64,000 bases of DNA from Acidobacteriota bacterium (GTDB lineage: Bacteria; Acidobacteriota; Thermoanaerobaculia; UBA5066), in NCBI GenBank assembly GCA_029781975.1, contig JAKOVQ010000003.1, positions 62,001-126,000 on the forward strand. Reading direction: 5' to 3'. The translations under genes and the position numbers were made by a program. A model generated the notes under the pieces. It was not told the origin of the DNA, did not search any database, and was given only the letters and a program-made list of their open reading frames with translations. Below are positions 19,272-23,332 of this stretch, in pieces. Positions within the stretch are counted from its first letter, which is position 1. Each line of letters starts with the position of its first letter.

Positions 19272-19724
19272 ATGACGGAACCCGAGCAGGGAGCGGTCGT
19301 CCTCTGGCTCTCCAGCCGCTACGAGAACATCGAGCTCGTCCAGGCGGCGCTGGGCCACGTCTGCCGGCTCCGGGGGATCGACGGCGAGATGGAGCACTGG
19401 ATCGGGATGGCGCTCCGGGAGGCGGTGGCGAACGCCATCAGGCACGGGAACCGGCTCGACCCCCAGAAGAGGGTCCTCGTCTCGTTCGGAGGCGACGGCG
19501 ACGTCCTCGAGCTGACGGTCGGAGACGAGGGGGACGGCTTCGATCCGGGCCGGATCTCGGATCCGCTCGCGCCGGAGAACCAGATGAAGACCTCCGGACG
19601 GGGGATCTTCTACATCCGGACCTTCATGGACGAGGTCAGCTTCTCCCGCGGGGAGAAGGGCGGCACGATCCTGACGATGAAGAAAGACCTGAAGACCCGA
19701 ATCGCGGGAAAGGGAGAGCAGTGA
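19272..19724 (+). CDS. RsbW-like anti-sigma / histidine-kinase-fold Ser kinase
   Basis: 150 residues forming one HATPase_c_2 domain. The N box is seen as ALREAVANAIRHGN (Glu and Asn of the ATP site at about 57-68), the G1 box as VGDEGDGFDP (about 76-85) and the G2 region as TSGRGIFYIRTFMDEV (about 106-121). Such kinases phosphorylate a STAS-domain antagonist and bind a sigma factor or other target. The next gene, overlapping by 1 nt, encodes exactly such a STAS protein. No sigma-factor gene is adjacent, so the output partner lies elsewhere. Confidence 0.88.
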   Translation: MTEPEQGAVVLWLSSRYENIELVQAALGHVCRLRGIDGEMEHWIGMALREAVANAIRHGNRLDPQKRVLVSFGGDGDVLELTVGDEGDGFDPGRISDPLAPENQMKTSGRGIFYIRTFMDEVSFSRGEKGGTILTMKKDLKTRIAGKGEQ

Positions 19725-20068
19725 TGGGCAAGGACTTCGGTATCCGGATGAACGGCGACGTCAAGGTCATCGAGCTGAAGGGGAAGATCACGATCGGCTC
19801 GGGCGACCTCAAGATGCGCGAGACGATCCACCAGGCGCTCGGAGACGGCACGAAGAAGATCCTGATCGACATGGCCGGCGTCAGCACCATCGACTCCTCC
19901 GGGGTCGGCGAGCTCGTCGGCTGCTACACGACGGCGACGCACAAGGGAGCCAAGCTGAAGCTGATGAACCTCCCGAACAAGATCCAGGACGTCCTCACCG
20001 TCACCCAGCTGATCACGGTGTTCGACGTCTATTCCAGCGAGGCGGAGGCGGTCGCCAGCTTCGGCTGA
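19724..20068 (+). CDS. STAS-domain anti-sigma factor antagonist (RsbV-like)
   Basis: 114 residues, a single STAS domain. The phosphorylation loop is DMAGVSTIDSSGVGELVG at about residues 46-63, with the SS pair holding the serine targeted by RsbW-type kinases. It begins at ATG 19724, overlapping the kinase stop; a GTG one codon earlier is an alternative. It probably forms a partner-switching pair with the upstream kinase; a SpoIIE-type phosphatase able to dephosphorylate such proteins is encoded at 58355-59494. Confidence 0.9.
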   Translation: MGKDFGIRMNGDVKVIELKGKITIGSGDLKMRETIHQALGDGTKKILIDMAGVSTIDSSGVGELVGCYTTATHKGAKLKLMNLPNKIQDVLTVTQLITVFDVYSSEAEAVASFG

Positions 20069-20134: not shown

Positions 20135-23100
20135 TCAGCGCTCGAACCAGAGGTCGTTCCACCGCACCGGCGGCGGCAGGAGGTGCGCCTGCACGCCCCT
20201 CAGGCGCGGGCTGTGGGCCACGAAGGCGCGGTCGTGGAAGAGGAAGACGACCGGCGCCTCGGACTGGATCAGCCTGTTGAGCTCGCGGTAGGCGGCTTCC
20301 CGCTCGCTCGTGTCGACGGCGCGGGCCCCGCGCTCCACGAGGCGGTCGACCTCGTCGTTGCGGTAGCCGGAGTCGAGCACGTCCTCGGTCTTCGAGTAGA
20401 AGAGCGAGTTGAAGAAGGTGTCGGGGTCGGGGAAGTCGGCGAACCACCGCGCGAGGCGCACGTGCGGGAACTCGCCCCTCTTCCGGCGGGCGGCGGCCTC
20501 GTCGGCCGGGACCACCTCGATCCCGAGCGCGATGCCGGCGGCCTCGAGCTCGGCGGCGATCGCCGCGAGCGGGTTCGACGGGTTGCGCGCCTCGTTCGGG
20601 CCCTGCCAGGCGGTGAGGGTCAGGGGCGCCGCCACGCCCGCCTCCTGGAGCAGCGCGCGCGAGCGCTCGACGTCGTGCCGGTAGGGCCGGAGCGAGGGGT
20701 CGTGGCCGACGAGATGGGGCGGCAGGATCGAGGCCGCGACCACGGTGAGGCCCGAGAAGAGCCTCTCGTTGAGCCGGTTCCTGTCGAGGGCGTGGTTGAG
20801 GGCCCGCCGGACCCTGACGTCGTTCAGGGGGGGGCGGTCGCATCGCAGCGTCAGGAACGACGTGTGGAGCTGGACGGACGAGTCGAGATAGGGCCTCCAC
20901 TCCGGGTCTGCGGAGAGGCGCGCCGCCTCGGCGTAGGGGACGTCCCAGGTCACGTCGAGCGCGCCGTCCAGGAACCGCTGGAAGACGCCGGCCTCCGAGT
21001 CCTCGGTCAGGTCGAGGTCGACCCCCTCCGGGGCGATCCGGGAGCGGTTCCAGTACCCGTCGAAGCGGTCGAACCGCGCCGCCGCGCCGTAGCGGATCTC
21101 GCGGGGGACGAAGGGGCCCGTCCCGCTGGGGTGCGCGCGAACGCGGGCCGGATCCGCGAGGAGCGAGGGCGGGAGGACCGTGATGTCCGGGAGGGTGAGG
21201 AGCTGGAGGAAGAACGGGAGGGGGCGGTCGAGCCGGACCGTCACGGTCGACGGCCCGGTCGGCTGGATCCCGCTCACCTCACGGCTCCGGCCGGCACGGA
21301 AGTCGGAGAAGCCGTCGATGGCCTCGAACAGGCCGGCGAGCGGCGCGTTCAGCTCCGGCCGGAGGAACCGCTCGAACGACCTCTTGATGTCGGCGGCGGT
21401 CAGCGTCCCTCCCTCGTGGTACCGCACGCCGCGGCGAAGGTGGAACGTGTACAGGGTCCCCGTCGGGTCGATCTCCCACCGCTCGGCGAGCTCGGGGAGG
21501 ATCCGGGTCCCTTCGCCGAAGCGGACCAGCCCCTCGCCCCACGTCCTCACGAGGATCGACTGCGGGACGGTCTGGCCGAAGGCCGGGTCGAAGTTCTCGT
21601 CGGGGAGGTAGCGGAGCGCCGCCCGGACGCGGCCGCCGGGGACCTGCGCGGGGAAGCGGAAGAGGGCCGCGCGCGACCTGAGGACGAGCGCCTCCTGCTC
21701 CAGCGCCTGCGCGGTCTGGTTCATCGCCGTCGCCGCGTAGGCGTTCTGCGAGGCGGCCTTCCGGATCTCGGACATGGAGCGGACGATCTCCCGGGACCCG
21801 TCGGCGAGCGTGGAGGTGGCCTCGGCGATGTCGTCGACGGTGGAGGTCACGCTCTCCATCGACGCCAGGACGCTGCGGCTCCCCGCGGCCTGCTCCTCCA
21901 TGGCCCGCGCCAGCTGCTCGGTCAGCTCGCGGACGCGCTCGGCCCGAGCCCCGACCGACCGTGCCCCCTCCAGCTGGCCGCGGGTGGCGCGCGAGATCCG
22001 GGCCACCTCCTGGGAGACGCGGCCGGTCGCCTCCGAGACGCGGAGCACCTCGACGGCCTGGTCGGCCGCCGCCGCGGCGATCCCGTCCGAGGAGTCCTTC
22101 GACTCGGCGGCGAGGCGCTGGATCTCGCCCAGCGTCGAGTCGGCCGTGTGGGCCTGGTCGACCCCTTCCTCGGCGCGGCGCCGCGCCTCGAAGAGGAGGC
22201 GCCTCACGTCCTCGATCCCGCCGCGCACGGACGAGACCAGGCCGCGCACCTCCTCGGTCGAGACCGCGGACCGGTCGGAGAGGTCCCGGATGTCCTCGGC
22301 CAGGACCGAGAAGGCCCGGCCCGACTCCCCGGCCTGGGCCGCGATGATCGAGGCGTTGAGGGCGAGGAGGTTCGTCTCGCCCGCGATCTCCTCGATCGCC
22401 CGGAGGATCTCCCCGATCCGCGCCGAGTGCTCGCCGAGGAGCGCGGCGGCGTCGGCCGCTCCCCCGACGACGGTCCTCACCTGCTCGATCCCCTCCGCGG
22501 CCGCCGAGACCGCGGCCTTCCCCGAGACCGCGGCGGCCGCGACGCGCTCCGCCAGCCGGGCCCCCGTCTGCGCCTGACGGTCCGTCTCGGCGGTCGACTC
22601 GCGGATGGAGCCCGTGGAGCGGACCGTCTCCTCGGCGAGGTCCGAGAGGTTCTCGACCGCCGAGGCGACCTCCTGGAGCGCCGTCACGACCCCGCCCAGC
22701 GAGGCCGTCGTCTCGTCCACGAAGGCGCGGAGCCCGAGCGTCGAGCGCGACACCTCGCCGATCGCCGTCGTCATCTCGTGCAGCGACGCCCCCGCGTCCT
22801 CCGCCGCTCCCGCGAGGGTCTCCATCGTCGCCCTGAGCGACGAGATGGCCGCGTCGTTCCTCTCGATGGCGAGCGCCGTCTCCTCGGAGCGGGAGTTCTG
22901 CACGGCGGCGGCCCGCGAGAGGTCCCGTCCCCGGCTCGTCAGGTCCCGCGCGACGGCCGAGACCGCCTCGGAGAGCCGCGCGAACGAGGCGAGGATCCGC
23001 TCCATCGCGACCAGCAGCCCGTGGAGGGCGTTCGCCGTCTCGGTGTCGCCGGACCGCGACAGCTCGCTCCTCTCCAGGGTCAGGTCGCCCGCGGCCGTCC

Positions 23101-23332
23101 GGTAGAGGGCGTCGCGGGTCGCGTCGCGGGCCTTCCGGGCGCGGGCCGCCGCGCCCAGGGTGACGACGAGGACGGCGGAGGCGGTGAGGACGCCGACGGT
23201 CAGGATGCGCAGGGGCGAGTAGCCCGGCGTGAGGGCGAGGACCACGAACCCGGCCGCCACCGGGACCGCGGGCAGGAAGGCCGCGGCGCGAGAGCGGCCC
23301 CTTCCGGGAGGCGGCGCGTTCACGGCGGGCAT
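20135..23332 (-). CDS. Chimeric methyl-accepting chemotaxis protein with C-terminal peptide-binding domain
   Basis: 1065 residues. Residues 16-36 and 42-62 are two membrane spans with only about five residues between them, so there is no periplasmic sensor domain. Residues ~65-555 are a long alpha-helical MCP signalling region; the hairpin tip is IAGETNLLALNAS then IIAAQAGESGRAFSVLAED (~317-347). Residues ~570-1065 are a complete SBP_bac_5 (DppA/OppA-like) domain, with FDPAFGQTVPQ, YTFHLRRGVRYHEG, GTGPFVPRE and LNHALDRNRLN. No membrane span or signal separates the two, so the binding domain should be cytoplasmic. The ATG at 23332 was chosen because upstream sequence is antisense to the prenyl synthase gene. 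No che genes are nearby. Confidence 0.9.
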   Translation of the reverse strand: MPAVNAPPPGRGRSRAAAFLPAVPVAAGFVVLALTPGYSPLRILTVGVLTASAVLVVTLGAAARARKARDATRDALYRTAAGDLTLERSELSRSGDTETANALHGLLVAMERILASFARLSEAVSAVARDLTSRGRDLSRAAAVQNSRSEETALAIERNDAAISSLRATMETLAGAAEDAGASLHEMTTAIGEVSRSTLGLRAFVDETTASLGGVVTALQEVASAVENLSDLAEETVRSTGSIRESTAETDRQAQTGARLAERVAAAAVSGKAAVSAAAEGIEQVRTVVGGAADAAALLGEHSARIGEILRAIEEIAGETNLLALNASIIAAQAGESGRAFSVLAEDIRDLSDRSAVSTEEVRGLVSSVRGGIEDVRRLLFEARRRAEEGVDQAHTADSTLGEIQRLAAESKDSSDGIAAAAADQAVEVLRVSEATGRVSQEVARISRATRGQLEGARSVGARAERVRELTEQLARAMEEQAAGSRSVLASMESVTSTVDDIAEATSTLADGSREIVRSMSEIRKAASQNAYAATAMNQTAQALEQEALVLRSRAALFRFPAQVPGGRVRAALRYLPDENFDPAFGQTVPQSILVRTWGEGLVRFGEGTRILPELAERWEIDPTGTLYTFHLRRGVRYHEGGTLTAADIKRSFERFLRPELNAPLAGLFEAIDGFSDFRAGRSREVSGIQPTGPSTVTVRLDRPLPFFLQLLTLPDITVLPPSLLADPARVRAHPSGTGPFVPREIRYGAAARFDRFDGYWNRSRIAPEGVDLDLTEDSEAGVFQRFLDGALDVTWDVPYAEAARLSADPEWRPYLDSSVQLHTSFLTLRCDRPPLNDVRVRRALNHALDRNRLNERLFSGLTVVAASILPPHLVGHDPSLRPYRHDVERSRALLQEAGVAAPLTLTAWQGPNEARNPSNPLAAIAAELEAAGIALGIEVVPADEAAARRKRGEFPHVRLARWFADFPDPDTFFNSLFYSKTEDVLDSGYRNDEVDRLVERGARAVDTSEREAAYRELNRLIQSEAPVVFLFHDRAFVAHSPRLRGVQAHLLPPPVRWNDLWFER

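Follow-up and report, generated by a model that had tools for sequence, protein, structure and literature searches.

Solute-binding proteins are textbook extracytoplasmic proteins. In Myxococcus xanthus, Moine et al. 2014 (PMC3945109) tabulate a receptor of 1048 amino acids, McpK (MXAN_6456, ABF92748), that contains a methyl-accepting chemotaxis protein (MCP) domain and a “Bacterial extracellular solute-binding proteins domain”. The passages on McpK in that paper contain no discussion of its topology or ligand. In the mutant lists that it gives, mcpK is neither among the mcp mutants with swarming defects nor among those free of a defect, which makes a developmental defect possible. The tables of the same paper describe the Che8 system of M. 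xanthus (MXAN_4751-4759) as cheY, cheA, two cheW, cheR, cheB and cheY, with no receptor in the operon. Here we describe a McpK-like fusion of an MCP to an SBP_bac_5 domain, encoded by an Acidobacteriota bacterium (GCA_029781975.1, class Thermoanaerobaculia) within a stretch of 64,000 nucleotides (contig JAKOVQ010000003.1, positions 62,001 to 126,000), which in its entirety is called the window. Judging from sequence comparisons, we favor with moderate confidence the reading that this protein is a membrane-anchored receptor of cytoplasmic solutes, most likely short peptides, and that it feeds a non-flagellar, Che8-like CheA.

The fusion gene and its homologues

The receptor is encoded by a single gene of 1065 codons (1065 amino acids plus stop) at window positions 20135-23332 on the minus strand. 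A preliminary description of this DNA had reported a 1065-residue frame at these coordinates with two closely spaced membrane spans, an MCP domain and then a full SBP_bac_5 domain, and the reading frame, Pfam matches and hydropathy agree with it on every count. We infer that 23332 is the start codon; the frame continues upstream, and the N termini of the homologues fit this position. All of the following features lie on the minus strand. The first transmembrane span (TM1, residues 16-34; 23231..23287) was identified by hydropathy and is a helix in the structure model. A loop of about 8 residues separates it from TM2 (residues 43-61; 23150..23206; hydropathy), which is followed by the positive-inside sequence RARKAR. 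Next comes a HAMP-like linker with a conserved AGDL motif (residues 62-110; 23003..23149), recognized in alignments and lacking a Pfam HAMP match. The MCP antiparallel coiled coil occupies residues 111-556 (21665..23002), as delimited by Pfam, arm-length comparison and the model; within it are the MCPsignal match (PF00015, residues 270-441, 22010..22525, E 1.3e-30, above the cut-off) and, from the alignments, the hairpin tip LALNASIIAAQAGE (residues 323-336; 22325..22366), which includes I330 and Q333. The last MCP helix, ALEQEALVLRSRAALFRFPAQVPGG, is joined directly, through the junction motif ELxRFxLP-GG, to the strand with which the binding domain begins. The SBP_bac_5 domain itself has no signal peptide and spans residues 565-1065 (20138..21640), with a Pfam match (PF00496) at residues 611-981 (E 8e-66). 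Pfam found no other domain above cut-off in the protein, HAMP included, and the N terminus consists of the TM hairpin and the MCP domain, with no DNA-binding domain such as that of SgrR. A scan for promoters and terminators found none.

Homologues with the same domain order, which the preliminary description had proposed to seek, are found as full-length proteins in both Acidobacteriota and Myxococcaceae. Within the class, 61 relatives were searched and 23 carry the fusion, some as copies that are incomplete at contig edges; the full-length proteins are 31-73% identical to the window protein and belong to its own family and to three more. A survey of Acidobacteriota, consisting of an even draw of 247 genomes with a match threshold of E 1e-70 or better, yielded fusion matches in 26 genomes of many families. 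When named genomes were scanned, many Myxococcaceae proved to have it too, from the genera Myxococcus, Pyxidicoccus, Corallococcus and Archangium as well as from uncultured relatives. The MCP-SBP_bac_5 design is thus kept across many soil and predatory bacteria of two phyla.

These data also bear on the possibility that a lost stop codon or an assembly error in high-GC DNA (DNA rich in guanine and cytosine) has joined two genes. In favor of it, the GC content of the window is 73%, and long antisense frames overlap the gene. Against this, the fusion recurs in two phyla, and one homologue stays open for 1066 codons in a gene of only 42% GC, so that base composition does not account for the long frame. 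Further, in a codon comparison with three relatives, third-position changes exceed those at the first and second positions across the TM region, the MCP domain, the junction and the binding domain alike, so that coding constraint spans the junction. An artefact of this kind is ruled out, its probability being practically nil. Genuine split genes, which had been envisaged as a consistent break near residue 560, were likewise rejected. The sole split copy (genome G056, locus L044, at about 4690) is interrupted by a frameshift in the final heptads of the MCP domain, reflecting either decay or an assembly error, and the partial copies in G032 and G044 stop at contig ends.

Predicted placement and probable ligand of the binding domain

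For counts of topology signals, ligand residues and tips, 30 homologues were aligned. Two hydrophobic N-terminal spans are evident in most of these proteins and at least one is clear in all, always within the first 80 residues, according to a crude 19-residue hydropathy scan. The junction between the MCP and binding domains contains no hydrophobic segment in any of the 30; the maximum 19-residue hydropathy there is 1.38, compared with 1.4-3.0 for the N-terminal spans. Positively charged residues lie upstream of TM1 in all but one of the homologues and are found after TM2 as well. The window protein has no signal peptide, lipobox or third span before the binding domain, and none of the 30 has a span or signal at the junction; either would have spoken for a different placement. 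Among stand-alone SBP_bac_5 proteins sampled from these genomes, most do have a signal or lipobox ahead of the domain. Because two spans return the chain to the side from which it started, the C-terminal domain is predicted to be cytoplasmic. The original proposal of a cytoplasm-facing binding domain is therefore upheld as far as these signals go, namely two spans, a clean junction and no periplasmic sensor, with the location itself a prediction.

The fold of the binding domain offers a guide to its ligand. In the AlphaFold model of the full-length protein this domain is good, and residues 565-1064 match 1uqw_A (YliB) best (Z 38.1, root-mean-square deviation 2.2, 477 residues), followed by MppA, DppA and OppA. 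Sequence and model agree that the domain belongs with OppA, DppA, MppA and YliB. The MCP hairpin is folded unreliably in this monomer prediction, with some portions of the bundle having pLDDT confidence values of about 43-63, and for this reason no mechanism was read from the model. D966 (codon 20435..20437) aligns with OppA D419 and DppA D408, the aspartate that binds the peptide amino terminus in those proteins. This residue is invariant in all 30 fusions, and in the alignment SgrR has no aspartate at the equivalent position. The invariance of D966 points to ligands that present a free amino group, with peptides as the leading candidates. No genes for ATP-binding cassette (ABC) transporters were found among the neighbors scanned between 17.0 and 27.6 kb of the window. 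The idea of a peptide sensor acting in cis on an MCP module thus gains a conserved peptide-binding residue, and peptide binding itself is probable on these grounds.

The same receptor, with the same topology, might instead recognize a non-peptide ligand, either another solute with an amino group (an amino acid, an opine or a murein fragment) or a partner protein. Members of the SBP_bac_5 family bind peptides, murein peptides, heme, metals, opines and sugars, and the nearest solved relatives of the domain include 8upi (aminoserine), YliB, MppA and NikA. SgrR, likewise cytoplasmic, has been tied to sugar phosphate (PMC13060122). The conservation of the amino-terminus aspartate in every fusion, together with its absence from SgrR, argues for peptides, and we consider a non-peptide ligand unlikely, if a serious alternative.

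In a quick tree of SBP_bac_5 domains, all of the fusions fall in one clade (support 98). Inside this clade, beside the Myxococcus branch (support 80), are proteins of about 1900 amino acids that combine a Ser/Thr kinase domain, AAA_16 and two C-terminal SBP_bac_5 domains (L216:4519-10197, minus strand, and L219:3063-8849, minus strand; also L217, L218 and L220). These tandem-SBP kinases have no clear span or signal and are the nearest other relatives of the fusion binding domains in the tree. On this evidence they appear to be another example, from these same organisms, of intracellular use of this clade of binding domains. Because the kinases lie inside the fusion clade, the fusion may have arisen once or twice, and the tree accommodates either history.

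The hairpin tip, the probable CheA partner and a proposed mechanism

In E. coli receptors, a glutamate and an arginine of the hairpin tip are required for trimer contact and kinase control; in Tsr these canonical residues are E385 and R388. The tip consensus of the fusions is NLLALNA(A/S)IIAAQAGE, compared with NILALNAAVEAARAGE in E. coli Tar. The II..Q pattern is present in 30 of 30 fusions, with I330 and Q333 replacing the canonical E and R and with small changes at the intervening A; the remainder of the tip is almost invariant. Past the tip, the C arm of the MCP domain extends for about 224 residues or 32 heptads, a 64H-like length, where PMC3945109 gives 44H for McpK. Stand-alone receptors with an I-I-A-A-Q tip are widespread, and most of them end 224 residues past the tip. 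Given this equality of arm length, the fusion consists of an entire I-I-A-A-Q receptor to which a binding domain has been added. One further protein (L130:3-2237, plus strand) has a fusion-type tip and a 490-residue stretch beyond it in which tblastn found no SBP_bac_5 match.

I-I-A-A-Q receptors that have che genes beside them lie in clusters of the layout cheY-cheA-cheW-mcp-HEAT-cheR-cheB. In the genome of the window, a cheY-cheA-cheW-HEAT-cheR-cheB cluster is present on another contig (C15, locus L027) and the receptor is absent from it. The same layout was seen in the other fusion-bearing Acidobacteriota examined and in fusion-bearing Myxococcaceae, with no receptor of recognizable tip inside; one Archangiaceae contig stops before the HEAT position. 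The HEAT-repeat protein between cheW and cheR is of about 740 amino acids across phyla (for example L027:7262-9487, minus strand, and L149:4934-7147, plus strand). The CheAs of these HEAT-type clusters (26 rows) group in one clade (support 96/95) that excludes the eight CheAs taken from other systems. CheW was detected in 23/23 fusion-bearing relatives and in 18/38 fusion-free ones (Fisher P = 8e-6, uncorrected for kinship), and a genus of the window's own family has neither the fusion nor CheW. In one genome (G059), each of the three receptors has a tip of the form I(I/L)AAQ, and the matches obtained for CheW indicate one CheA. Inspection of 61 genomes of the class revealed no flagellin gene, which points to a non-flagellar output. 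The chemotaxis or kinase-control module of the preliminary description is accordingly probably not one for flagellar chemotaxis. These comparisons suggest that the likely partner of the fusion is a non-flagellar, Che8-like CheA encoded elsewhere in the genome.

We propose the following mechanism. The two N-terminal spans, with their very short loop, would anchor the receptor and leave the remainder in the cytoplasm, into which the MCP bundle would project. The MCP helices would run to the hairpin tip and then return, and because of this return the mature-type SBP_bac_5 domain would lie beside the HAMP-like turn under the membrane. A ligand held by its amino group at D966 would cause the binding domain to close. 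Closure may alter the packing of the membrane-proximal four-helix bundle in a manner resembling the HAMP motions of ordinary receptors, except that the signal would enter from the cytoplasmic side. The change in packing would travel to the I-I-A-A-Q tip, which would dock on a dedicated CheA/CheW set, that of the C15 cluster, much as in M. xanthus Che8. CheY would then deliver a non-flagellar output, which might be gliding or pilus motility, or gene control.

Several points weigh against this proposal. First, McpK is given three TMHMM spans in PMC3945109, and an odd number of spans would turn the binding domain outward, so that it would be periplasmic after all, by way of a third span or an unusual insertion. 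The additional hydrophobic stretch of the Myxococcus relatives belongs to the MCP helix that follows the tip. It includes charged residues and has no counterpart in the Acidobacteriota proteins, and for these reasons we take the third McpK span to be probably a false prediction. The absence of a hydrophobic segment from the junction, and the fact that the return arm of the MCP bundle would have to cross the membrane, add to the case for a cytoplasmic domain and make a periplasmic one very improbable.

Second, the I/Q tip could mean that control of CheA has been weakened or lost, in which case the MCP portion might serve as a mere dimerizing scaffold for the binding domain. The canonical E and R are replaced in every member of the family, and the window protein has no match to the methylation consensus. 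On the other hand, the same tip is standard for receptors encoded within complete che clusters, the rest of the tip is almost invariant, and the fusion and CheW occur together. In addition, a homologue from another family (L013) retains three matches to the methylation consensus. Decoupling from CheA is for these reasons improbable.

Third, the identity of the CheA partner can be questioned. The co-occurrence of the fusion with CheW could reflect shared ancestry, and the outgroup of the CheA tree is small (8 rows) and its branches are long. Moine et al. 2014 group McpK with DifA by bundle class 44H and link it to Dif (PMC3945109), an assignment in conflict with the Che8-like one of the McpK homologues. 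The genome of the window encodes two other MCPs with different odd tips, so that its CheA need not use only the fusion receptor. One of these has the tip LNASLLAARAGE (LLAAR; L028:7457-9187, plus strand); the other, with the tip LNLALHAARSGD (ALHAARSGD; L029:7473-8702, plus strand), is short (410 amino acids) and has one N-terminal hydrophobic stretch.

If a membrane-anchored receptor of cytoplasmic solutes is correct, chemosensory arrays would have a means of monitoring the pool of peptides inside the cell. A testable ligand would become available for McpK, an unassigned receptor in the genetically tractable M. xanthus, and the I-I-A-A-Q tip together with the HEAT-type cluster would allow orphan receptors to be matched with their CheA by a code readable from sequence. 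A broader generalization can be offered tentatively. It holds that chemoreceptors of a widespread class detect the peptides of their own cytoplasm with an intracellular binding domain and report to a dedicated Che system, non-flagellar and marked by a receptor-tip code of its own, the same clade of binding domains having also been captured, in tandem, by cytosolic Ser/Thr kinases. These peptides may come from the breakdown of proteins, from uptake or from the recycling of murein.

Neighboring genes and comparison with known systems

The genes that flank the fusion were identified by Pfam and by comparison of loci. Downstream, in convergent orientation, are genes for an RsbW-like ATPase (19272-19724, plus strand) and a STAS protein (19775-20068, plus strand). 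A priori, the output could be partner switching through this kinase and its STAS neighbor instead of CheA, and both genes do adjoin the fusion in the loci of its own family for which flanking DNA is available. This pair is not found beside the gene in any other family or phylum, and its convergent orientation means that it shares no operon with the fusion. As output partners these proteins were rejected on account of their restriction to one family, and partner switching is extremely improbable. The divergent neighbor encodes a polyprenyl diphosphate synthase (PF00348; 23414..24313, plus strand), which adjoins the fusion in every locus of its own class with flanking DNA and is absent from this position in other classes and in Myxococcota. 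A functional tie between the synthase and the receptor was likewise set aside, the adjacency being limited to the class, and the arrangement may be no more than synteny.

As a whole, the comparison with described proteins separates what is new from what is not. The preliminary description had regarded an inward-facing binding-protein receptor as unprecedented. This is not so, because McpK is already tabulated in PMC3945109, and cytoplasmic SBP_bac_5 domains are known from SgrR-type regulators, as described in PMC13060122. A literature search for C-terminal cytoplasmic solute-binding domains in receptors found no description. The architecture is known, and what is new is the breadth of the family over two phyla, its uniform predicted inward topology, the invariant peptide-binding aspartate, the I-I-A-A-Q signature of the tip and the proposed membership in a Che8-type system.

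The closest described protein is McpK, which according to the published table resembles the window protein in having an MCP domain followed by a solute-binding domain, no Pfam HAMP match, no che operon and a similar size (1048 vs 1065 amino acids). The Myxococcus and Pyxidicoccus homologues of 1047-1048 amino acids equal McpK in length and domain order; these were aligned with the window protein, whereas McpK was compared by its description. McpK is known from this table and from its class assignment (44H, Dif), whereas the comparisons of its homologues speak for a Che8-like system and for a bundle of greater length. The tabulated layout of Che8 is that of the clusters in fusion-bearing genomes, which suggests, at the level of published tables, a tie between Che8 and the fusion. 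SgrR-type regulators (E. coli SgrR, V. cholerae DsvR) likewise use a signal-less SBP_bac_5 domain as their intracellular sensory part (PMC13060122), but have an N-terminal DNA-binding domain of their own in place of the MCP, and SgrR lacks the peptide-binding aspartate. OppA, DppA and MppA share the fold (Z 32-38) and the aspartate for the peptide amino terminus; unlike the fusion domain, they are exported, free or lipid-anchored, and supply ABC transporters. Finally, the stand-alone I-I-A-A-Q receptors of Deltaproteobacteria, Nitrospirota and Myxococcota have the same tip and the same 224-residue C arm as the fusion, but they stop at the MCP domain and carry their sensors at the N terminus.

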